A stretch of DNA of 64,000 bases, taken from assembly GCF_000801105.2 (NCBI RefSeq), contig NC_079517.1, positions 22,701,579-22,765,578 of the forward strand, written 5' to 3'. Each line of letters opens with the position of its first letter. The stretch's first letter is position 1. The notes beneath the pieces are model-generated. The model had not been told where the DNA came from. It was given only the letters and a program-made list of their open reading frames with translations, and searched no databases. A program made the position numbers and the translations under genes. Shown piece by piece: positions 5,386-36,763 of the stretch. This stretch comes from Raphanus sativus (lineage: Eukaryota; Streptophyta; Magnoliopsida; Brassicales; Brassicaceae).

Positions 5386-6570
5386 CTACTCGCTCAGCCA
5401 ACCACCACGCGGAGAGTCGCCGAGGGTCTCGGTTCCAGGACCCGTCGTGCCACCGTCTGCCACCCTAGCCTCCGGGTTCCCGCTCTTCTTCCGGGGACGC
5501 TGATGCTCGACAGCGAACACCCTCCCTTTAATTTTATCCTCTGCAGCTATTGCTTGACTTGCCATCCTCCTCACGAGAGCAAACTCCAGAGGCTCTAGAG
5601 CTGCTCCGAGTTTGTCGCGAATCTCCCTGCGTAGTCCGGCTCTGAACAACCTACACCACTCCTCCGCCGGCTTGGGCTGACAATGCCTGGCGGTATCCAA
5701 AAACTCCCACAAGTAGTCCTTCACTTTGTTTGACTTCTGCGCAGCCTGAACCCGTACGTCGCAGTCGCAATCGTCCTGATCTGAAGAAGGCTTCTGTGGG
5801 CGCCCCCGTTTCTTCTTGGGTGCTTCCCCACCGGTTGCCTTGGGGTTCCCATCGCCCTCCTTCGGTTTCCCGGGCCCAGTTTTCTTAGCTTCAATTTCCC
5901 CTTCTGCTTCGATCGCTAATCCAGCCATACGCTGCACCAAGGCGAACTCCAGAGGCTCTAGGACACCCTTCACCTTGTCCTGAATCTTCTTACGCAGTCC
6001 TCGCTTGTACCATTTGCACCACATTTCTGCGCTCTTCGGCTTACACAACTTAGCTTGGTTGATGAAGTCCACAGTATAGCCAGCAACAGATCGATCCTCC
6101 TGCTTATTCCGGAATAGTGTCTTGCACCGGCATTTCCCGGCGATGGATCTCGGCGGCTCTCGGGCCACCCCCGACGCCTTGCTTGGCCGGCCCCGCTTCC
6201 TCGGAAGGTCCTCCTCGAGAGCGAGTTGGAACGTAGCACAACCCTGGAGTACACGCTCCTCCATAGCCTTCTTCAGGAAGTGTGGCATCGTCACTATGCG
6301 TCCCACAGTCTGCTCGTAAGGGTACACGAAGGGAAACTCTCTGAACTGTTCCTCTGGATCTGGAAACGTAGGCGGCACCCAGTTGCCCTCCGCGTCACGG
6401 TACCGTTTCCGGGCATGCTCCCGAGTGCCCACCGGCCCGTAGCTCAACCGTGGCATCCTCCACTCGTAGTGATCAAGCGGAAACATCCTGCAGACAAGAA
6501 CACGATCAGAACCATAATAGAAGCATAGATACCATGGGTGGATTTTGAAAACAACACACAATTTCCTCAA
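5386..6570 (-). CDS. Gag-like ORF with duplicated AT-hook plus Gag-core module (non-autonomous LTR element)
   Basis: 394 codons on the minus strand. A second possible start is Met29 (6486), just after an acceptor-like CTGCAG. Residues 29-115 are a unique N-terminal segment. Then the same architecture occurs twice: AT-hook RKRGRPSK (124-131) with a Gag-core-like helix block at 169-223, and AT-hook KKRGRPQK (253-260) with block 290-344. The blocks share GLR(K/R)(K/E)I(Q/R)DK and LEPLEFALV(Q/R)RMA. GLR-x-EIR followed by an amphipathic helix resembles the C-terminal Gag capsid core of Ty3-type elements. No protease, reverse transcriptase or integrase follows before the element is cut at about 5309. 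It sits downstream of an LTR and PBS in the same orientation, which suggests a TR-GAG type element. The Gag assignment is inference. Confidence 0.65.
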   Translation of the reverse strand: MRKLCVVFKIHPWYLCFYYGSDRVLVCRMFPLDHYEWRMPRLSYGPVGTREHARKRYRDAEGNWVPPTFPDPEEQFREFPFVYPYEQTVGRIVTMPHFLKKAMEERVLQGCATFQLALEEDLPRKRGRPSKASGVAREPPRSIAGKCRCKTLFRNKQEDRSVAGYTVDFINQAKLCKPKSAEMWCKWYKRGLRKKIQDKVKGVLEPLEFALVQRMAGLAIEAEGEIEAKKTGPGKPKEGDGNPKATGGEAPKKKRGRPQKPSSDQDDCDCDVRVQAAQKSNKVKDYLWEFLDTARHCQPKPAEEWCRLFRAGLRREIRDKLGAALEPLEFALVRRMASQAIAAEDKIKGRVFAVEHQRPRKKSGNPEARVADGGTTGPGTETLGDSPRGGWLSE

Positions 6571-24594: not shown

Positions 24595-25443
24595 TAAAGA
24601 GACGAGTCTCCATTGTATGTGTGTGCGCGCGTGAGAATGTACGGGTGACTCACGCTTAATGAATAAAAAATAAAGGCAATAATAGTTACGTTGGTCGACC
24701 AGTGTATAAGTTGGAGTCGTTTTTTCTCTTTCCGGGCAACCTCTATTACAGGGTACCTGAATCTTAAAAATAAAAAAAAATATTAGAATAATGAAAAAGG
24801 GTCCAAAAAAAAATTGCATTCGTTTCTTAGAGGAATTTTAAGCACCGCTCCTTATTCTTTGATTGTCATTTTTCAACTTCTGATCGATTTGCTTTTTTAG
24901 AAACAAATAAATTTTAGAGAAAAAAACTAGAATAGCACATATTAGTTGAAATATAACTAGAATAGCATACATTTTCATTAAATTGCTAGAATATTTTCAG
25001 ATTCCTAATAAATTACAATAAAATCTCTTATTTAATTTGTTATTTTTGATACAAATTTTAAGTATTAAGTCCACGTCACTAATTAGAAACACCACGTCAC
25101 TAATTTATGTCATCAACCGTCCCATAACTCCGATGAAAAGGAAAAAAAAAGTTATATCATCTTCGACGTTACAACTTTCTTCACAACTTTCGTTAAACCC
25201 TAACCGAGTTCGAAATCATCTTCGACGTAACGTAGAATCTCGTTTCGAACTGTTTCGAACTGTTTGCGATATCGTCTTCTCCATTATCATCTTCGCCGAC
25301 CTTGTTAAACCCTAACCGTCTCCGATATCATCTTTGTCACAACTAATCGTCTCGTATCGAACTGTGTCTGAAATTCTCTTCTCTGACATTCTCTTCTCTG
25401 CAAAAGTGTCTACGCAATCGTATCTACGACATCATCTTCTTCG
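24595..25443 (+). other. OSM34 3' flank and left end of the Mutator-like element
   Basis: The OSM34 3' UTR ends in AATGAATAAAAAATAAA near 24657. Around 24917-24990 the words ACTAGAATAGCACAT are typical of MULE/VANDAL ends. From about 25135 the sequence resembles a 5' leader (AACCCTAACCGAGTTCG repeated at 25195 and 25305). The exact left border was not resolved. Confidence 0.45.
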
Positions 25444-25922
25444 GTATGTTGTGGCTGAGTTTGATTTATATTGTGGTCGAGTTTAATTTACGATGTGGCT
25501 GAGTTATAGACTATGTTGTAACTGAGTTATTGGATAGTGTGGCTGAGTTGAGTTTGATTTACGTTGTGAAAATATAGATTTTCATTTCGGCTGAGTTATA
25601 GATTATGTTGTGGCTGAGTTATTGTTAAGATATGGCTGAGTTATTGATTATATTGTGACTGAGTTATTGATTATTTGTGACTGAGTTATTGATTATCATA
25701 CGGCTGAGTTATTGTTATGATATGGCTGAGTTATTGATTATATTGTGACTGAGTTATTGATTTATTGTGGCTGAGTTATTGATTATAATGCGGCTGAGTT
25801 ATTGATTAAGTTGTGGCTGAGTTTTGTTTCTATTATGACTGCGTTATATTGTGGCTGGGTTATATATTTTGTTTTGGTTGAGTTTGTTTCTATTGCGGCT
25901 GATTTATATATATGTGTTTTAG
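25444..25922 (+). repeat. Motif array in the 5' UTR intron of the Ulp1 gene (about 20 copies of GGCTGAGTTA)
   Basis: Between a donor (TTCG|GTATGT) and an acceptor (TTTTAG|GATC), GGCTGAGTTA-type words recur every 20-25 bases, all in the sense orientation, often as TGTGGCTGAGTTATTGATTA. Some copies have one change (GACTGAGTTA, GGTTGAGTTT). Confidence 0.9.
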
Positions 25923-26783
25923 GATCATATGGCTATTTCTGAAGATCAAGCATGGGATTATCCTCCACGACTTTACGCTGAAGGGGCTTCTAAACTAGAA
26001 AATAAAGAGATTAATCACAATATGCATATGGGAGAGTTCCCTAACGTCAGAGAAGCATTAGGAGTGGATGTGTGGGATTACCTGAGGGAGAGTCCTCTTG
26101 GAATTATTGTTAAGCTAGCTGAACGCAAAAGCGTGTGGTCTGGTAAGACTGTACACTATCTACTATGTCGACAGCTTCGAGTAGAGAAGAAGGAGATTTG
26201 GAGTCTAGTTGGCGATGAACCTCTCAGATTTAATTTAAACGAATTTGGTGAGATAATTGGGTTAAACACAGATCCAGTGCCAGCAGAAAGTTTTGAACCT
26301 GACCAATACAAAGAGTTTTGGAAAGTGTTGAAGGTGCCGCTTGGGCAAGGACCAAAGTTAGATTAACTGAGGGTAGCATTAGAGGTCTGTCCGGCGTGGA
26401 GTTTCGATCAGCGTAAATGGCTAGGACTGTTACTTCTTCAAGCCATGGGACTTTATGCTATGCATCATAATTCTAGGATACCGTTTGAAAGTGCAAAAAG
26501 AGTATTCGACGATGAAGCCATGATGACGTATCCATGGGTTCGGATTGCATATGAAGTTCTTGTTGACTCTATTAAGAGGTTGGATCCACAAGGAAAGTCA
26601 TACTTCATAAACGGTCTGACGAACGTGTTATTGGTTTGGGCATATGAGTCTGTCACTTGTTTTGGAGAGCGTTTTGGGAGAGTGGTCGATGAGCAAGAAG
26701 TTTCTCTTTTCCGATGGGGTGGAAAGCGTACACGTACAAGTTTAGATACTGTCATAGCTGAGGAGATTAGAGAACATGGCGAG

Positions 26784-27088
26784 GTAAGGTGTCAGCTGAT
26801 TTATTATTTAATATGTATTAAGTGGCTGGGATAGTGTTTATATGGTAGCTGGGTTTTTTGGTATTAGTTATTTGATGGCTGAGATAGTGTTTATATGGTG
26901 GCTGGGTTTTTGGTACTTTGTGGCTTTTTATTAAATGTTACGGCTGAGTTATTTATTCTTTACGACTGAGTTATGTGTATGTGTTCTTTACGGCTGAGTT
27001 ATTTGTTCTTTACGGCTGAGTGATTTGTTCCTTACGGCTGAGTTATTAGCATGGCTGAGTTATTTTGATTTGGTGGCTGATTTTTTAG
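26784..27088 (+). repeat. Motif array filling intron 1 of the Ulp1 gene (about 11 copies)
   Basis: GT at 26784, AG at 27087-27088. Contains GGCTGAGTTATTT, GGCTGGGTTTTT and ACGGCTGAGT words at roughly 20-30 base spacing, all in sense orientation. Confidence 0.9.
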
Positions 27089-28493
27089 GTGCGCGTGAGA
27101 AAAATGGTTATGAAGGACTCTTTAGAAGAGATGTTTCCTCAGTGGCCGGATGAATCAGATGACACGCTACTTGTGAACTTGATAACCGACATATATACAG
27201 GTCGGTTTGTTAGAGATTTTTGGGTAACATCGATGAAACGCAAACAAACAAAGGCTGGTGGTTCGTCAAAGGCTGAACCACCCATTAAGAAGCAGAAGAA
27301 AGTGAACATCATTGTTGAGGATGAAGTTGCTGTGGAGGGGAAAGGTGCTCGTGAGAAGGAAAATACGGAAGATATTGGGAACAAGAAGATATTGTTGACC
27401 ATAATGCATTCTTTGGAGAAAATTTCTTCAAAAATAGACAACTACGATAATAGATTCGATATCGTCGATGAGAGATTCAACAAATTTGAAGAGCGATTAA
27501 CCAGATACGAGTCTAGAGATTCCAACATTGCTGATTTAGTCAGAACTACAGTGGAGGAGTACTTATCTAAAGTTCTCGAACAACAATCTTTATCGTTGCC
27601 ACCACCGCCACCACCGCCACCACCACCGCAGCAATCTGTCACTAGTTCTGCTAAGGCCTCTCCTGCTAAGGCCTTCAGAACAGTAGCTCAGGCAAGTGAT
27701 GTTGATTTTGTTACTGTTTCTCCTTCTAAAGACCCAACCATAGGACGCGGATGCAGGGTAAAGTTAAAAGGTAAGAGGAGATGAGGTTAAAGAGAAGGAC
27801 GATAAGGAGGCTGAGTTAGCAACGAAGGAGGATGAGTTAGCAAAGAAGGCGGCTGAGTCAAAGAAGAAAGTGACAGATCCTAAGAAACTGGCGGTTGCGT
27901 TAAAGAGACAAGAGGCGGCTGAGAAGAAGGCACGGCTGGTTGAGGAAAGGAAAGAGGCGGCTGAGTTAAAGAAGAAAGCGAATGCGGAAGAGGCCCCAAA
28001 AAGAAAAACGCGTGGCGGTGTAATAACATTAACTGTACCTCAGCCGAAACCGATTCAATCCGATAGTGATTTTGCGGATATTACTGACCAATATATCGCA
28101 GCACAAGACGAAGTGATTCCGGAGTCTGATGTGGAGGAAGAGGACAGAATCAGATCTGCAAGAGTTAAGGAATATCGGGAGAAAAATGTTCAGTTATCTC
28201 CAACTGGCCGTGGCCGTGCATTGTTCGCTGAAAATGCTCCTTCACCACCAGTTTTTCCTCACATTGGAGACAATGGAACGACGTGTATGAGGAAGAATTT
28301 TGAACCTTCACCAGCAATATATGATCCTTTAGCACCGGTTGATCCAGCAAAATTGGATAAACTTAAGGAACACCTAGAGAAACATAAGAACGTTCCCACT
28401 AAAAAAACAGCAGCACATGAGGGTGAGTTCTACAGGATCATCATCACTGAAAGACCGTGGCCAGTGAAAGATTATGGATGGCTGTTTGATGAT

Positions 28494-28805
28494 GTAAGTC
28501 TATGTTCTTTTTTGGCTGAGTTAATTATTCTATGTGGCTGAGTTAGTATTCTTTTTGGCTGAGTTATGTGTTCTTTACGGCTGAGTTTAGTGTACTATAT
28601 GGTTGAGTTATGTCTTCTATATGGCTGTGTTATGTGTTCTTTACGGCTGAGTTTATTATTCTATGTGGCTGAGTTAGTATTCTTTTATGGCTGAGTTATG
28701 TGTTATTTACGGCTGAGTTTAGTGTACTATATGGTTGAGTTATGTCTTCTATATGGTTGAGTTAATTATTCGTTTATATTGATTTGATTTTTTGTTTTTG
28801 TATAG
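28494..28805 (+). repeat. Motif array filling intron 2 of the Ulp1 gene (about 12 copies)
   Basis: GT at 28494, AG at 28804-28805. GGCTGAGTTA alternates with TATGGTTGAGTTATG, and a block of about 150 bases (28500-28640) is repeated at 28650-28765. All copies are in sense orientation. Confidence 0.9.
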
Positions 28806-29519
28806 CATATTAGTGCGTTTCTGCGAGTCCTCACCAAAAGGTCCATGCAAGATCCCAGCCCATATTGGTCCAAGCGCATTGCATTTATTGACTTTTGGTT
28901 CCTCAGTACATTGGTTCACGATTACACGCAGTTCAAGATAAATCCATCGCGGATGAAATTCAAAGATAATGGCTATGAAGAGTTAATAAACGGTAGGATG
29001 TCCCTGGACTGTCCTACAAACTTGAAGTGGTATGAGGATGTGGATCATCTGTACGGAGTGCTTCAAACTGGTGGCGATCATTGGGTGGCGTTTCACGTAG
29101 ATCTGCTTAAGGAGAAGATTGATTGCTATGATCCAATCATTGGACAGGTAACACCCGAAAGTGAAAAGAAGATTGTAGATTCATTTAAGCCTCTTACGCA
29201 AATGCTACCTGCGATGTTGAACGAGAATATTCCTCCCACATTCCGAAAACCCAGAAAGACGCAGTTTGCGTTCCGAATGAGGAAAGGCAAATACATTCCA
29301 CAAAACAACCAGATTGGCGATTGTGGAGTGTATGCATTGAAGTTTGTGGAATGCTTAGCGCTTGGCGTGACTTTTGATGGGATAAATGATAGTAATATTC
29401 AAGGTATACGGGTGAAGATGACAGCAGATATCCTCGTTGAAAAAGGAAATGACATGTATGAACAATTTAAGTAGCTTTTTGAACGATTTGTATTTGACTT
29501 TAGCTAATGGTATGTTTCT

Positions 29520-29885
29520 ATAAGCCAGCCACATTGTTTCAATAAGCCAGCTACATTGTTTCAATAATTCAGTCGTATCGTTTCAAACCACAAACATACC
29601 CTCAAAAATCGAAAGGGTTTAATATAACCCAGCCACATCGTTTCAATAAGCCAGCCGTATCGCTTAGATAATCCAGCCAAACCACAAACATACCTTCAAA
29701 AATCGAAAGGGGTTAATATAACCCATCCACATCGTTTCAATAAGCCATTCATATCGCTTAGATAATCCAGCCAAACCACAAACATACCCTCAAAAATCGA
29801 AAGGGTTTAATAAAGCCCATCCACATCGTTTCAATAAGCCAGCCGTATCGCTTAGATAATCCAGCCAAACTACAAACATACCCTA
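29520..29885 (+). repeat. Opposite-orientation motif array downstream of the Ulp1 gene
   Basis: Words such as AAGCCAGCCACATCGTTTCAATAA and AATCCAGCC recur about 12 times, embedded in a longer unit (CAAACATACCCTCAAAAATCG) repeated about four times. Confidence 0.8.
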
Positions 29886-30523
29886 ATATTGGAAAATGTA
29901 CTTTAAAAAGTTACTACAAATTAATATTATCAGTTTTAGATGAATATATAACCAACAGACTATGTATATTTCATTGAATTTACAAGTTTTGAATTGATAA
30001 TGGTCTTGAGGTATAAGTTATCTTACAAACACTTAAAACCTTATGTAACTATATATGTGTTGAACGCACCAAATACAAAGTATACCATATAAATGTTTTT
30101 ACAACTGAATTTGTGTAATTTCTTATATTTTATAGTGGTAACTAAACCATAATCACTAAATCCTAAACACTAACCCCCAAATACTTAACCCTAAACCCTA
30201 AAACATAAAATTATCCTAAACATAAACTCAGCCGTAATATGACATTAACTCAGCCGTTGGACGGGAACTTGAAAATATGTTTGTGCGGGAACTTGAAAAT
30301 ATTTTAGCCCATAGCTGGCCCAGCTCTATATATAGATGTAATAAAGTAACTTTTTCAGAAGAAAAAGTTGGAATTAGGGTTCTTAAAGAAAAGTGTCTTC
30401 CTCATCTAATCGAGTAAACATTTTGTTACAAAATCAAGAGAACAAATGTTTGGGAGAATCAAAACGGTTCTTAAAGAAAAGTAACATTTTGTTTCGGAGA
30501 ATTTTAATCGCGTTGCAAGATCG
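29886..30523 (+). other. Central spacer of the MULE with telomere-like repeats and a TATA box
   Basis: AT-rich. CCTAAACACTAACCCCCAAA and ACCCTAAACCCTAAA at about 30160-30205 are telo-box-like words. Two TAACTCAGCC motifs lie near 30230-30255. TATATATA at 30327-30334 is a possible promoter for a short transcript into 30524-30601. Two TTCTTAAAGAAAAGT direct repeats are at 30380 and 30470. Confidence 0.5.
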
Positions 30524-30601
30524 ATGTTTCGTCATCAAATGTGGTTGCTGAAGAGGGATTGGGCACTTGGTCGCAAGAAGCCTGATTGGATGCTAACTTG
30601 A
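30524..30601 (+). other. Possible small ORF (25 aa) or gene remnant in the MULE centre
   Basis: MFRHQMWLLKRDWALGRKKP... stops after 25 codons, about 190 bases downstream of a TATA box and transcribed leader-like sequence. It could be the start of a third gene (VANDALs have a vanB) whose remainder was lost, or chance. The following sequence returns to motif array. Confidence 0.3.
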
Positions 30602-30603
30602 GT

Positions 30604-30895
30604 TTGGCTTTACAAGTCAATAACCCAGCCTTTACAAGTCAATAACTCAGCCTGTACAAGTCAATAACTCAGCATATACAAGTCAATAACTCAGCCTTCA
30701 TATGTAAATAACCCAGCCTTTACAAGTCAATAACTCAGCATGTACAAGTTAATAACTCAGCCTTTACAAGTCAATATCTCAGCCACATTATTTAGTTAAC
30801 TCAGTCTTTCATATAACTCAGTCTTTAAATGTCAATAACACAGCCGTAATTAAAACATTAAAATCAACAACTCAGCCACATAATTGAAACCAATA
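30604..30895 (+). repeat. Motif array downstream of the MURA gene (about 12 copies of TAACTCAGCC)
   Basis: The unit TACAAGTCAATAACTCAGCC repeats at about 20-25 bases. Relative to the minus-strand transposase gene the motif reads GGCTGAGTTA in the sense direction. Confidence 0.9.
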
Positions 30896-31364
30896 CATCA
30901 CTTTTAAATCGGACAAGTTTTTACATTATGACCACTCTGTCTACAACGAGAACATGTGTGTTCTTTCCTAGGACGTTTGTTTTCAAGTGCAACCTCTAAA
31001 GCATATTTCATTCTATTTTTCTTAGGCCTTCCTGGCTGACGACGAATAGACGGGGGAAAGAATGGTAGGTTAACCACGTTATCTGGAACTGGTTGCGCTG
31101 AATCAACCGGCATGACTGATTGAGCGTATGGCACACCAAATAAGCGTTGGTATAGTAAGGACTGCACAGGGATATACGAGAAACATTCCTGGACTCCGCA
31201 GCTGCGATTGCATGCGAACATGGAATTCTCTCCCGTTCGAAACGCCTGCATGTGCTCTTTCTCCCTTCCAAGTTAACAACATGCAAAGACTCACCATATG
31301 TAACTTCAGTGTGATGAGCATCGATCCTTTGAACCGTCAACAGTCTCGCGGTAGTAACACGACC

Positions 31365-31617
31365 CTATTATAGATAAATAAACAATGAAAAGCATTATAG
31401 GCTGACTTACTTGAAAAGCATTATAGGCTGACTTATTAAAGTTACGGCTGACTTATACAATATAAAGGCTGACTTATGCAATCTATGTGGGTTGACTTAG
31501 GCAATCTACTGGGCTGACTTATGCAATCTATTTGGCTGACTTATGTAACTAACTATAATATGGGTTGACTTATGCAATCTATTTGAGCAGACTTATTCAA
31601 CATTAAGGCTGACTTAC
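31365..31617 (-). repeat. Motif array in MURA intron 2, with polarity reversed
   Basis: About 10 copies of GGCTGACTTA on the plus strand at about 25-base spacing (GGCTGACTTATGCAATCTAT). Here the motif is antisense to the gene and carries C instead of G at the seventh base. Confidence 0.85.
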
Positions 31618-32490
31618 CTGTAGTAGTTTCTCTACACAGCGTGTAAGCGTGGTTGGCTGCGATGCAGCAACATCTCTCCGTTCAGCAAACCATCTGGTCA
31701 TCATAACCCGTATCGATTCTAATAGTCGAACAATGTTAAGACCTCTAGCATTTGACAATGCTCTGTTCATTGATTCCGCAGTGTTCGTAGTCATCAAATT
31801 ATACCTTTCGCCCGGAAAATGAACACGCGCCCACAATCGAGGATCTGCTCTTTCGAGGTAGCCGTGAAGTTCAGGATAAATCGCTTTAATCTCCTCGTAA
31901 ATCGCAGTAAAGTCAGGCATCCTAAAACATCTCGCCGCTTTCTTCACCAGACGAAATACATCTTTTCCTTTGTACCGTCCCAAAATGTTCTTATATAAAT
32001 GGTACGTGCAAATTCCCCGAGAAGCTAACGGATACACATTTCGAATAGCCTTCCCAATCGACTTATGCGTATCTGAGATTATCGCAAGACCCTTGTCGTC
32101 TGGTATCAAATGTTTTGGTTGCGTAAAAAACCAGTGACACGAATCGTCATTTTCTGTGTCGACCACAGCGAATGCTATTGGAAAAATCTGAAAGTTGCCA
32201 TCCTGAGCTAGTGCGGTTAGAAGCGTCCCTTTGTATTTGCCATTAAGAAACGTACCGTCGACAACAACAACTTTGCGCATGATAGGAAGCCCATTAATGC
32301 TCGCACCAAATGCAAGGAACATATACATGAATCTTCCAAACTCATCGATTTGAAGACGCGTTACTGTATCCGGATTTGCACTTCTTATCATGTATAAGTA
32401 AGAAGGCAAGTTTTCAAACCCACTCTCAGGTGTTCCCTCATCGATTTCCCTTGAAAATTTCAGCGTCTTATATGATTTCCAATAAGACAT

Positions 32491-32898
32491 CTACACAAAT
32501 GAAGACAAATAACTCAGCCGAAACGTATAAATAACTCAGCCGACGCGCATAAATAACTTAGCCAAAACATATAAATAACTCAGCCGAAGCGTATAAATAA
32601 CTCAACTCAGTCCAATAACCTAACTAACTGAGCCCAAACCTATAAATAACTAAGCCGAAACCTATAAATAACTCGGCCGACGCGTATACATAATTCAGCC
32701 CAAACCTATAAATAACTCAGCCAAAACAAATAAATAACTCAGTCCAATAACTTAGATAACTCGGCCGAAACCTATAAATAACTCAGCCCAACCTAATAAC
32801 TTAACTAACTCAGCTGAAACATGTGATAAAACAGCCAAATAGTTAAGATATAACTCATCCTTATAGTAAATGTAAGTCAGCCTTTAGAAAATATTTAC
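32491..32898 (-). repeat. Motif array filling MURA intron 1 (about 18 copies)
   Basis: ATAAATAACTCAGCCGAAACGT-type units on the plus strand, so GGCTGAGTTATTTAT on the sense strand of the transposase gene, at about 22-base spacing. Confidence 0.9.
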
Positions 32899-34129
32899 CT
32901 TGAGACCAAACTGCTTATTGAGAGCTATTCCGATACTCGTAGGTCGAACGGCTGGACCAACATCGCCGAGATAGTCCTTGTACAATTGCCCTAAAATATC
33001 TGGTGTTGCTTGTCGACTTCGATTAGAATGCTCAGTTACAGAATATAAATGTAACGACTTGTAAATACGAACATAGAATGCCGGAGAATCCCCTTGTGTT
33101 GAAGTACGAACTCTCCAGATACATCCAGCAACCCAACATTTAACAATGAGTAAATCTGGATTGGATACTTCCACATCAAAATCAAATTCATCTTTCACTG
33201 AAAGAAGTTTCAGTCGTCTTTCTAACTCGGCTTTACTTTCATATCGTTGACCTACAGCAAGGTTTAGCGAAGACATCTCTAACCGTGGAACCTCGGGATC
33301 CTCTTTGCATCCGCCCATCCACAAGTTCTTAGATCTACTTTTAGGCGGTGGTGTCTGTGAATCTTCGTCTTGTGCTGGAGACTCACCGTATGAGCTGAAG
33401 TTATCATCTTCGGATGACGCACTATCTGAGTCGTCGAACATATCAAATCAGCTTTCAAATTCATTGTCTTCTTCATTTTCTTCATCTTCTCCAACATCTT
33501 TCTGGTTTGATCCGTCCAAGATACTAGAGAAGTTATTCTCATTGTCGTCGTGTTCCTCCTCCAAACTTAAACCTTCGTAAACCTCTTCGTAATCTTCGTA
33601 TCTAGATTCAACTTCTCCTTCTGAACTGTATAATCTTTTACTCTTCTCTGCTCCGTCTTCCCAACTGATTTCACCATCATCCTTCTCCGTAATCTCGACA
33701 CAAAGACGTAATTTCTCGATCTTCCTTAGGCTTAAAAAAATTTGCTATTGTCGAGTATTGGGAACGTAAACTGGTGGCGTGTCGTGCGCCATTGTTTTCA
33801 AATCTTTATTCGAGAATATGTAGCTAAGCTGAATCTGATGACTCCACTCATTCAAACCGTAATCATCGAGTACTGACTTTGCGAGTTCGTCGAGTGTTGT
33901 TTTCTCATCTGCTTGCAGAACTATACATCCTCTGCTATCGGGTTGGAATACATATCTATTTTTCTTAATCCAGTTACCTGAAACAATAATTATCGGATCC
34001 ATAAGATTTTAGAGAAAGAGAATAAGATGAAGATGAATATGAAGAAAAGAGAGTGGCGTTTGTAACAAAAACCCTAATTTCACAGTTGTAATGACATGGC
34101 AAATACGAGTTGACATGGATGATGACATG

Positions 34130-34790
34130 GTAAATTGGTAAGTCAGCCACTTTACGAACACTTAACTCAGCCAGAGTAAGCCAGCCATTAAGTTCATAAT
34201 AAGTCAGTTGATACGTTAATACTATTTTAGTAATTAATTTTTTGTTAATAAATCAGTCGTAACGAAGATATTCGCTAATAAGTAAGCCGTCTCGTCTTAT
34301 AAATCAGCCGGCAAATGAATGCTAGTCTAGTAATTAATCTATCGCTAAGAAGTCAGCCGTCACAAAGCTGAGTTTACTTAATCCAGGTTATTATGGCCGA
34401 TTAAACATAGCGTAGCCGCAACAAGCTCTCATAAGTCAGCCTGCCGACGATCATTTAATCAGCCGCGATAGTTAACTCGGCCGTATCGTAACTAGAACTC
34501 AGCCAAACTTTTCATAAATCAGCCCACCAATAGATAAGCCAGTCATAACATGTGAGCATAACTCAGCCTTTATCACATAAACCAGCCTTAGTTCTTTAAG
34601 TCAGCCGTGACGTTTGGATGAGTTATGAACATAACTCAGCGTGTGTCTCATAAGTCAGTCGAGTTCTTTAAGTCAGCCGCTTCCTAACTATAACTCTGCC
34701 GTAACGAAGTTCGTTTCGCATTACGACTGAGTTTGAGGCGCATTCTGACGTGGTGTCGAGTTTTTTGCCTACGTGGCACTAAAAAGTAAT
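34130..34790 (-). repeat. Motif array in the MURA 5' flank (about 22 copies)
   Basis: Degenerate TAAGTCAGCCG and TAACTCAGCC words at irregular 20-30 base spacing extend from just upstream of the transposase start to close to the presumed right end of the element. Confidence 0.85.
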
Positions 34791-34825
34791 GACATTTTTG
34801 TAATTACAATTTTTTTACAACATAA

Positions 34826-35054
34826 CAAAAGCGCACGCTAGGTATTAAAAAAAAGTAGTAATAAAAAAAGGTTTTATATGGTTTTCACTATAAGTTCTAA
34901 AATCCATACTTTTTGAGTTAACTTCCCTAAATTTTAACTACAAAACTACATATAATTAAATTAGTATTACTTTGGAAATTAAAACCTATTTTAAGACACT
35001 TACAGATGGAGCTGCCCTTAGACTTTTTTTCCATTGGTAATACTTTAATTAAAA
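34826..35054 (+). other. Spacer between MULE and Helitron
   Basis: AT-rich, no gene seen; the right MULE border lies somewhere around 34.8 kb. Confidence 0.4.
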
Positions 35055-35577
35055 CTAGATTTTGACCCGCGCTTCGAAAGCGCGGGTATTATTTTTCAGT
35101 TTTATGAAATATATTATTTGTTTGTAGTTATTGAATGTATTTATCATAGTGAAATTTTCTTTATAATAAATTCGACACATAGAGTGTCTCTGGTAAACTA
35201 TATGCTTCTCTGGCTTTGTTTTATTCTCTCTCCAATCAACATATTTATTTGACTTGTTGTTAAAAATAAATGATTTTAGGACGTAAATATACAATATTTT
35301 TACATTGATATTTTGTTTAAACAATGTGACATATTTTTATATTAATTAAATATTTACATTGTAATTTAAACTAAATTTTGACCCGCACGCCCATGCGGAT
35401 GTATATTTCAAACCGATTTATATGTTAAGTTTAGGTATTCTAACATATGTTATTCAGATTTATATACAATATATTATTTTATTTATAGATTTTAAGAAAT
35501 TCAAAATATATAATGAATTTTAAAAATTAATTTAAATGAGTTATCCAAACCCGAAGTGAACCCGCAAATATCCGAAT

Positions 35578-35817
35578 ATAATTCAAAATAAAATTTAGAA
35601 ATATCTGAATGGAGCTGAAATCTTTGACCTCCGAAACCCAAAACCCAAGCAGATCTGAAACGAACCCGAATGGATACCTGAACGCCCAGCCCTAGTCATA
35701 ATTCGAACTGAAATTTAGAAATATATGAATGGGGCTGAAATCTTTGACCCTAGAAATCTGAAACTCAAACAGATCCGAAACAAACCGGAATGGATACCTT
35801 AACGTCCAGCCCTAGTC
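35578..35817 (+). repeat. 120-bp tandem duplication inside the Helitron
   Basis: 35578-35697 and 35698-35817 are imperfect copies (TTTAGAAATAT(C/A)TGAATGG ... CCCTAGTC). Confidence 0.8.
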
Positions 35818-36763
35818 ACTATTATGTATCATGTATATGTCAGCATATAAATGCAATTAATTGCATTGGTCCATCATATAAATAATAGAATAGTCTTTCG
35901 ACGTCAAAAAAAAAATTGGTCCATCATATAAATAATTATATAAGTAATAATATTTTATATGTATCATCTTATAAATAATCATATATATTATATTCTTAAA
36001 GTTTAATGTGAAATATAAAAACCATAATTTAAGTTGGTATATAAAATTAATCTTTTTGTTGTATTTGCTTATATATAATGAAAACATTTTTTTAATAATG
36101 GTTATTGGATAATATTTTAGTAAAATAATTTTTGAATATATGAATATTTTAAAACAATTTTTTATATAAATCAACTTTAAATTATTATTTTGATTTGAAA
36201 TATGTATATAAAATTTAAATTTTATTTTATGATTATTTTAGTCAAAACAATGTTTTTAGGTAATTAGATTAGTCTATTTTGTATATTTTTTAAAACTGAT
36301 ATAATGGATTTCCAATTTTTATTAATAACATAAGCCATTTTTTTTCTTCTTATTTTTTCTTCTTGACATACTTTTATCCATGTTTCAAAGTTTTAAATTT
36401 TTTTGCATTAGTTTTCTATGAGTTATTATTAATTTTATGATATTTTTTTTTGAAAATTGAACTCTTGAAATTTTATATTTGACAAAACTAAATAAGGTAA
36501 TAATACTGTTTTTAAAAATTGTTTTACATAATAAACTATTTATATTTCAGTCTGTGTTTTTTATTTTCACCATAAAGAATTGTAAATATAGTGACATAAT
36601 TTTAAATAAAAAAATATAGAAAGAAGGTTGTTTAATTTATTATAAAAACAATAGTTAAATGTTTAAATAAAAAGAAATATTAATTATGTTATTCATGTTT
36701 CCAATCAATTCTCATTTGTTATTAATTTACTGAAAATACAATGGCTAAATATGTAAATAAAAG

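Follow-up and report, generated by a model that had tools for sequence, protein, structure and literature searches.

A radish VANDAL-type MULE with non-coding DNA full of a candidate binding motif for its own DUF1985–Ulp1 protein

Introduction

A Mutator-like element (MULE) of radish (Raphanus sativus), with genes for a MURA transposase and for a DUF1985–Ulp1 protein, carries one short motif, GGCTGA[G/C]TTA, again and again in its introns and spacers. It lies in a 64,000-nucleotide stretch of contig NC_079517.1 (positions 22,701,579 to 22,765,578), which was analysed whole and is called the window here. Why should a transposon fill its non-coding DNA with a single word, and which protein, if any, reads it? 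One class of answer comes from the VANDAL elements of Arabidopsis. According to passages of Hosaka et al. (PMC5735166), VANC21 binds arrays of a nine-base motif in non-coding DNA, and methylation is lost when VANC is expressed. Part of a further study describes RNA-directed DNA methylation as targeting the VANC-bound non-coding regions (PMC10398659), and a section of a review says that Ulp1-bearing VANCs (KIU) act likewise on their own families (PMC13317346). A sequence-only reading of the window had proposed an anti-silencing system of this type. We find that the radish element is quite probably a VANDAL-type MULE whose non-coding DNA is filled with a candidate binding motif of its own DUF1985–Ulp1 protein, judging from sequence comparison and from the Arabidopsis analogy.

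Results

The motif fills the non-coding DNA of the element

With at most one mismatch, GGCTGAGTTA matches the window 91 times, 90 of these within 25444–34790, and in 100 shuffled versions of the window the mean was 2.55 and the maximum 8. The broader form GGCTGRSTTA, at the same tolerance, has 103 copies in the 4,529 nt of non-coding element DNA versus 5 in 5,372 nt of coding DNA; 5 more are found across the 54,099 nt outside the element, and the shuffled element gave a mean of 1.44 and a maximum of 5. The array is therefore real and far more frequent than in shuffled sequence, which leaves the VANC interpretation standing, although the first estimate of about 120 copies was slightly high. The sequence-only reading had also placed the arrays correctly, in the 5′ untranslated region (UTR), the introns, the intergenic DNA and the MURA 5′ flank.

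Inside each non-coding segment the orientation of the motif is uniform, the sole exception being one of 19 copies in the MURA 5′ flank. Same-strand neighbours less than 80 bp apart (n = 92) are separated by exactly 22 bp in 46 cases and by 21–23 bp in 59. Across 108 copies the motif's ten columns hold 1.06–2.05 bits, versus 0.08–0.52 bits outside them, the former values being raised because the copies were picked by the motif itself. A paired-motif pattern matches the genome at 189 places versus 0 with a reversed control.

A tandem array repeating about every 22 bp is also what neutral minisatellites would give, growing by slippage and gene conversion and needing no binding protein, and motif and spacer are equally divergent between two recent copies of the element (see below). 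Yet the motif is constant while the spacers vary among segments and copies, and the array is nearly restricted to non-coding DNA both in the window and in four other stretches. Moreover, both motif forms occur in frame within coding exons, and other clades carry different motifs with a common core. We hold a neutral origin to be very unlikely.

Orientation bears as well on a possible host role. The motif core TGASTTA resembles the bZIP site TGASTCA, and its C form resembles CTGAC branch points; the motif might attract a host protein, for example of the bZIP type, or serve splicing as a branch-point-like signal. However, the motif runs antisense in one MURA intron, and arrays are likewise present between genes and in stretches where no gene is detectable. 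A fixed host factor, furthermore, would not predict clade-specific motifs among MULEs, and we regard a host role as extremely improbable.

The motif marks a single MULE clade

A genome-wide transposase search gave at least 134 matches, all counts being minima because the scoring covered 133 of 1,345 candidates. The loci fall into groups A (76–93%), B (65–68%), C (52–53%) and D (48–50%) according to how closely the transposase core matches that of the window, and a tree was built from 30 of them (11 A, 8 B, 8 C and 3 D). Support is 100/100 for A and likewise for D. Group B is a clade (98/99) in seven of its eight rows, with L025 on a branch of its own, and the C rows make up two groups, both adjoining D. 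Outside the transposase core, exact GGCTGRSTTA is present in 11/11 A loci, at 3–32 copies each, and in 0/8 loci of the sister group B, 0/8 of C and 0/3 of D; within the core, a single copy occurs in five C loci. In the host genome, GGCTGRSTTA marks a single MULE clade, A. The sequence-only reading would have been refuted if related elements lacked the array, and it is not; besides the 11 A transposase loci, four more 10-kb A stretches contain the array, with 107, 102, 48 and 58 non-coding copies and 3, 6, 7 and 6 coding ones.

Thirty Ulp1 loci were also examined. All 18 distinct loci with 57–100% identity, one A-like fragment aside, carry 3–24 exact motif copies, and the motif is found in 0/6 B-type Ulp1 loci (41–46% identity). 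A decayed locus, L066 (45% identity, 8 stops), holds 11 copies and was assigned to A partly on its motif. DUF1985, Ulp1 and MURA adjoin one another in examples from all four groups.

Since the motif and the MURA clade co-track in 30/30 loci, the motif could be bound by the MURA transposase, at internal or subterminal sites, rather than by the DUF1985 protein. Spm, of another superfamily, does encode a binder of repeated internal motifs, TnpA. The radish copies lie mostly in introns and between genes, however, far from the ends, and the arrayed motif of Arabidopsis is bound by VANC21, as described in part of PMC5735166. We consider binding by MURA highly improbable.

Two related stretches of 4.4–4.8 kb, C1:16546482-16551323 and C1:21996640-22001055, each hold 20 exact copies of the clade A motif, of which 18 and 19, respectively, share a strand. 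No MURA, DUF1985 or Ulp1 coding similarity is detectable inside them, and they are probably non-autonomous derivatives or parasites of the clade A system.

The DUF1985–Ulp1 protein is the candidate binder

The DUF1985 family profile matches the solved VANC21 entries 9lnj and 9lnk (E 3.4e-5). VANC21 is matched as well by a clade D protein (E 6e-6) and by Arabidopsis At2g24930 (E 6.4e-4), which is 51% identical over the searched part and has both DUF1985 and Ulp1. Indeed, DUF1985 and C48 stand in one protein among Brassica and Arabidopsis relatives. The family profile matches SENP1 (E 1e-4), and the window Ulp1 exon alone matches no PDB sequence at E ≤ 0.001. The residues surrounding the catalytic His, Asp and Cys, which we take to be the triad, look intact by eye. 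AlphaFold models were poor, with confidence scores (pLDDT) of 46.7 for a full-length Brassica relative and 54.2 for a DUF1985 exon, and a PDB fold search gave no match at E ≤ 0.001; fold comparison was not used. The DUF1985 exon of a clade D element (L073:2507-3394, minus strand) has a weak match, below cut-off, to the Plant mobile domain (PMD; PF10536, E 1.1e-4), and DUF1985 and PMD may be related.

Because the DUF1985 family matches solved VANC21, we infer by analogy with Arabidopsis VANC21 and VANC6 that the clade A DUF1985–Ulp1 protein may bind the arrays and demethylate, and so de-silence, their carriers. Contact with the arrays would be made by the DUF1985 part; from the spacing we guess that binding might be cooperative, between sites separated by about two helical turns. 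The bound protein would then remove silencing marks in cis and in trans from every family copy, the gene-less stretches included. The sequence-level predictions of a VANC interpretation hold: the motif is clade-specific, lies in non-coding DNA, and recurs in other copies and in gene-less stretches, and a DUF1985 protein is present whose family is related to VANC21 by sequence.

Several observations weigh against this interpretation. One A-like Ulp1 exon fragment (59–66% identity, three contigs, five rows) has neither the motif nor other element coding similarity nearby. A single clade A DUF1985 exon matches no PDB sequence, VANC21 included. The motif goes with the transposase as closely as with DUF1985, so the binder cannot be told from co-occurrence alone. 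Group B, which encodes DUF1985 and Ulp1, shows no common array in 1.0–2.2 kb of non-coding DNA per element; that search covered 7 elements, with counts inflated in five by overlapping loci counted twice, and repeats such as GGATGGAT occur in 2/7. Between the window and a recent copy on C4, the motif differs at 33/1000 positions versus 88/3225 in the spacer (p 0.33), so that no recent selection on the motif is visible between the two; coding sites differ to the same degree, at 174/5343. The divergence of L070 (about 15% in both classes) is dominated by out-of-register arrays and was not used. Finally, the clade A motif has no significant match to the VANC21 or VANC6 motif sets. As the sequence-only reading had stated, it is unlike the VANDAL21 motif, its best overlap with YAGTATTAY being 6/9 (chance 0.29); with VANDAL6 AGTTGTCC/AGTTGTAC the best overlap is 5/8, and neither the VANDAL21 nor the VANDAL6 specificity is found.

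Motif copies in the frame of exon 2

The few coding copies are more than chance remnants: all five in the window lie in exon 2 of the DUF1985–Ulp1 gene, four of them sense and in one frame, the first three spaced 21 nt apart. Throughout clade A, every sense copy in exon 2 is in one frame, mostly encoding (x)A(E or D)L, and two loci have one antisense near-match each. A Lys/Glu-rich open frame lies ahead of the Ulp1 exon in 16/19 A loci; such a frame is present in 4/6 B-type loci, with zero motif copies there. When codons were shuffled synonymously (300 shuffles per locus), the observed motif number was reached by at most 2 shuffles in 12/16 A loci. Two of the remaining four stand at 4–5/300 and one at 59/300, and one has no copy; the L039 frame extends into an intron, and its count includes one intron copy.

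Codon choice was compared in 12 genes between the repeat units, picked by peptide and not by DNA, and the rest of the repeat region. Glu is encoded by GAG in 49/49 cases in units versus 68/142 elsewhere, Asp by GAC in 11/12 versus 8/50, Leu by TTA in 53/61 versus 12/40, and Ala by GCT in 34/34 versus 44/107. The sample comprises 10 of the 16 shuffle-tested loci, the window and L072 (standing for L039 and L047), and omits L049, L051, L054 and L056, with 0–2 copies each. These genes are related copies, so p-values overstate their independence, and unit duplication alone gives some codon uniformity. Two observations nevertheless speak against duplication as a full explanation: unit lengths and peptides differ among subfamilies, and the codons GAG and GAC correspond to the motif's G and C forms.

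We tentatively suggest from these sequence patterns that a VANC-type protein's DNA target may have spread in frame into the protein's own coding exon, a proposal we hold to be possible but somewhat short of even odds. The clade A peptide repeats (mostly A-E-L and A-D-L) would then have two readings, coiled-coil-like repeats at the protein level and binding sites at the DNA level. The alternation of G and C in the motif reappears as that of Glu and Asp in the peptide. VANC variable regions hold tandem peptide motifs that Hosaka et al. speculated to define specificity, in a passage of PMC5735166; a possibility to add beside that idea is that VANC peptide repeats are themselves DNA targets. At the protein level, A[ED]L excess among 44 database relatives is mixed (at most 3/300 shuffles reach the observed number in 14/44, and the tripeptide is absent in 12/44) and is not used as evidence.

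Other clades carry other motifs

Around the clade D transposase core, de novo motif discovery found the array word GACGACTTA, at 19–34 copies per 3.0 kb. The DUF1985–Ulp1 gene of a D element (the example locus is L073:1-4000 = G000:C2:14466300-14470299) holds 50 copies per 4 kb, in its 5′ region and introns, with 0 copies in the Pfam-matched DUF1985 part. The word often forms a spaced palindrome, and GACGACTTA-N2-6-TAAGTCGTC occurs at 6,004 genome sites versus 0 for the reversed control, forward and reverse counts being identical sites. The clade C palindrome GTAGACT-N8-AGTCTAC occurs at 570 genome sites versus 5 in the control, and the near form AGACT-N8-AGTCT is found 4–6 times around each C core. 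Both palindrome counts are genome-wide totals, whether or not the sites lie in MULEs. If A is taken in its C form, the three clade words have the core GACTT in common, and the arrays come in two layouts, one of direct repeats about every 22 bp and one of spaced palindromes of 20–24 bp.

The clade D motif also lies inside two Brassica oleracea microRNAs (miRNAs), bol-miR9410 and bol-miR9411, given in part of PMC3840582. The miR9410 sequence has 96 genome places at ≤2 mismatches versus 0 in the control, none exact among the matches listed, and the best match of miR9411 to the examined element loci has 4 mismatches. Instead of being host miRNAs, these two may be small RNAs derived from the palindromic MULE arrays, suggesting that small-RNA silencing, too, draws on the arrays.

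A relic element with both genes broken

The element is longer than the 25444–34790 first assigned to it; the target-site duplication sets its ends at 24917 and 34927 (Table 1). The C4 copy has identical ends inside a different 9-bp repeat, TAATTATTA, and is an independent insertion. The ends were inspected by eye for terminal repeats and an inverted-repeat search covered arms of ≥30 nt; among the 25 longest of 71 pairs no terminal inverted repeat (TIR) was found, all 25 being motif arrays. Part of PMC6446971 gives MULE target-site duplications as 8–11 bp and VANDAL terminal repeats as absent or degenerate. On the evidence of its transposase, 9-bp duplication, DUF1985, Ulp1 and motif array, the element is classed as a VANDAL / KIU-type non-TIR MULE.

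MURA has Pfam matches to PF10551 (E 3e-20) and PF03108 (E 1.1e-7). PF09331 (DUF1985) appears in the window as two halves split by an in-frame stop, each below the Pfam cut-off, and exceeds that cut-off in loci L071, L072 and L073. Lesions in the window copy comprise one in-frame stop and one frameshift in the DUF1985–Ulp1 gene and two in-frame stops in MURA. Since both genes are broken, this copy is unable to supply intact proteins; it is a relic target, and any binder must act in trans. Rfam gave 0 matches in five loci.

Table 1. Coordinates (window numbering) of the element and its parts
Feature	Position	Strand	Remarks
Target-site duplication, left copy	24908-24916	strandless	9-bp direct repeat TAAATTTTA
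Entire MULE	24917-34927	+	10,011 bp; ends 5′-GAGAAAAAAACTAGAATAGC...GAGTTAACTTCCC-3′; no long terminal inverted repeat
DUF1985–Ulp1 gene, 5′ UTR intron (array 1)	25444-25922	+	16 motif copies, + strand; splice sites by eye
DUF1985–Ulp1 exon 1, DUF1985 domain	25923-26785	+	ATG 25929; in-frame stop 26364-26366; zero motif copies
DUF1985–Ulp1 intron 1 (array 2)	26786-27088	+	9 motif copies, + strand
DUF1985–Ulp1 exon 2, Lys/Glu-rich	27089-28493	+	Frame broken near 27770-27784
Exon 2 motif copies	27809, 27830, 27851, 27959; 28036		First four in frame; 28036 antisense near-match
DUF1985–Ulp1 intron 2 (array 3)	28494-28805	+	12 motif copies, + strand
DUF1985–Ulp1 exon 3, Ulp1 protease (Peptidase_C48)	28806-29474	+	E 8.1e-41; zero motif copies
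Between convergent genes (array 4)	29475-30903	-	23 copies, - strand; 94-bp tandem repeat with motif variants inside
MURA exon 3	30904-31364	-	Weak zinc-knuckle match
MURA intron 2 (array 5)	31365-31617	+	9 copies, + strand, antisense to MURA; 7/9 are GGCTGACTTA
MURA exon 2, MULE transposase core	31618-32490	-	Zero motif copies
MURA intron 1 (array 6)	32491-32898	-	15 copies, - strand
MURA exon 1, MuDR-type domain PF03108	32899-34002	-	In-frame stops 33745-33747 and 33448-33450
MURA 5′ flank (array 7)	34003-34927	-	18 copies on -, 1 on +; counted over 34000-34800
Target-site duplication, right copy	34928-34936	strandless	9-bp direct repeat TAAATTTTA

Just right of the element, at 35038–35200, a very common repeat begins that contains GACCCGCGCTTCGAAAGCGCGGGT; 39 of the 41 matches listed start at 35038–35054 and run to the query end, at 92–100% identity. 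Further on, at 35578–35818, a 120-bp tandem repeat in two copies (85% matches) is unrelated to the motif.

Discussion

The mechanism class proposed here is already known from VANDAL and VANC, and what the radish element adds is a motif unlike the two published sets compared here. The element resembles VANDAL21 in joining a MULE to a DUF1985 protein, in carrying a short motif in introns, intergenic and terminal non-coding DNA, and in having two motif forms (C and T types in VANDAL21, G and C types in radish). The two differ in the motif, YAGTATTAY versus GGCTGASTTA, and in gene content, VANDAL21 having VANA, VANB and VANC whereas only MURA and DUF1985–Ulp1 are seen in the radish element. KIU-type VANDALs reportedly have a VANC with an Ulp1 domain, as Sasaki et al. 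are said to have described in 2022. The radish element shares with these the union of DUF1985 and Ulp1 in a non-TIR MULE; the term 'Ulp' is absent from the main text of the VANC21/VANC6 paper. The VANDAL6 motif AGTTGTCC (reversed, GGACAACT) is 7/8 identical to the radish clade D word GGACGACT, with a chance of about 0.004 for one comparison where 15 were made; the clade A motif, in contrast, reaches 5/8 at best. We recognised no description of these radish motifs among the papers listed for VANDAL, VANC, KIU and radish, a coverage that excludes Arabidopsis KIU motifs, so that motif novelty is not established.

In radish, at least three MULE groups share one gene set but differ in array motif (GGCTGASTTA, GACGACTTA and GTAGACT), beside one group in which no array was found. 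Set beside solved VANC21, they offer a comparative set from which to learn how DUF1985 recognises DNA, and they might also yield sequence-specific demethylation tools from beyond Arabidopsis. What the VANC peptide repeats do can be tested directly on the frame-locked exonic copies. If it is true, the dual reading would offer a reason for the fast evolution of these repeats, and it would let the protein repeats and the target array change together.

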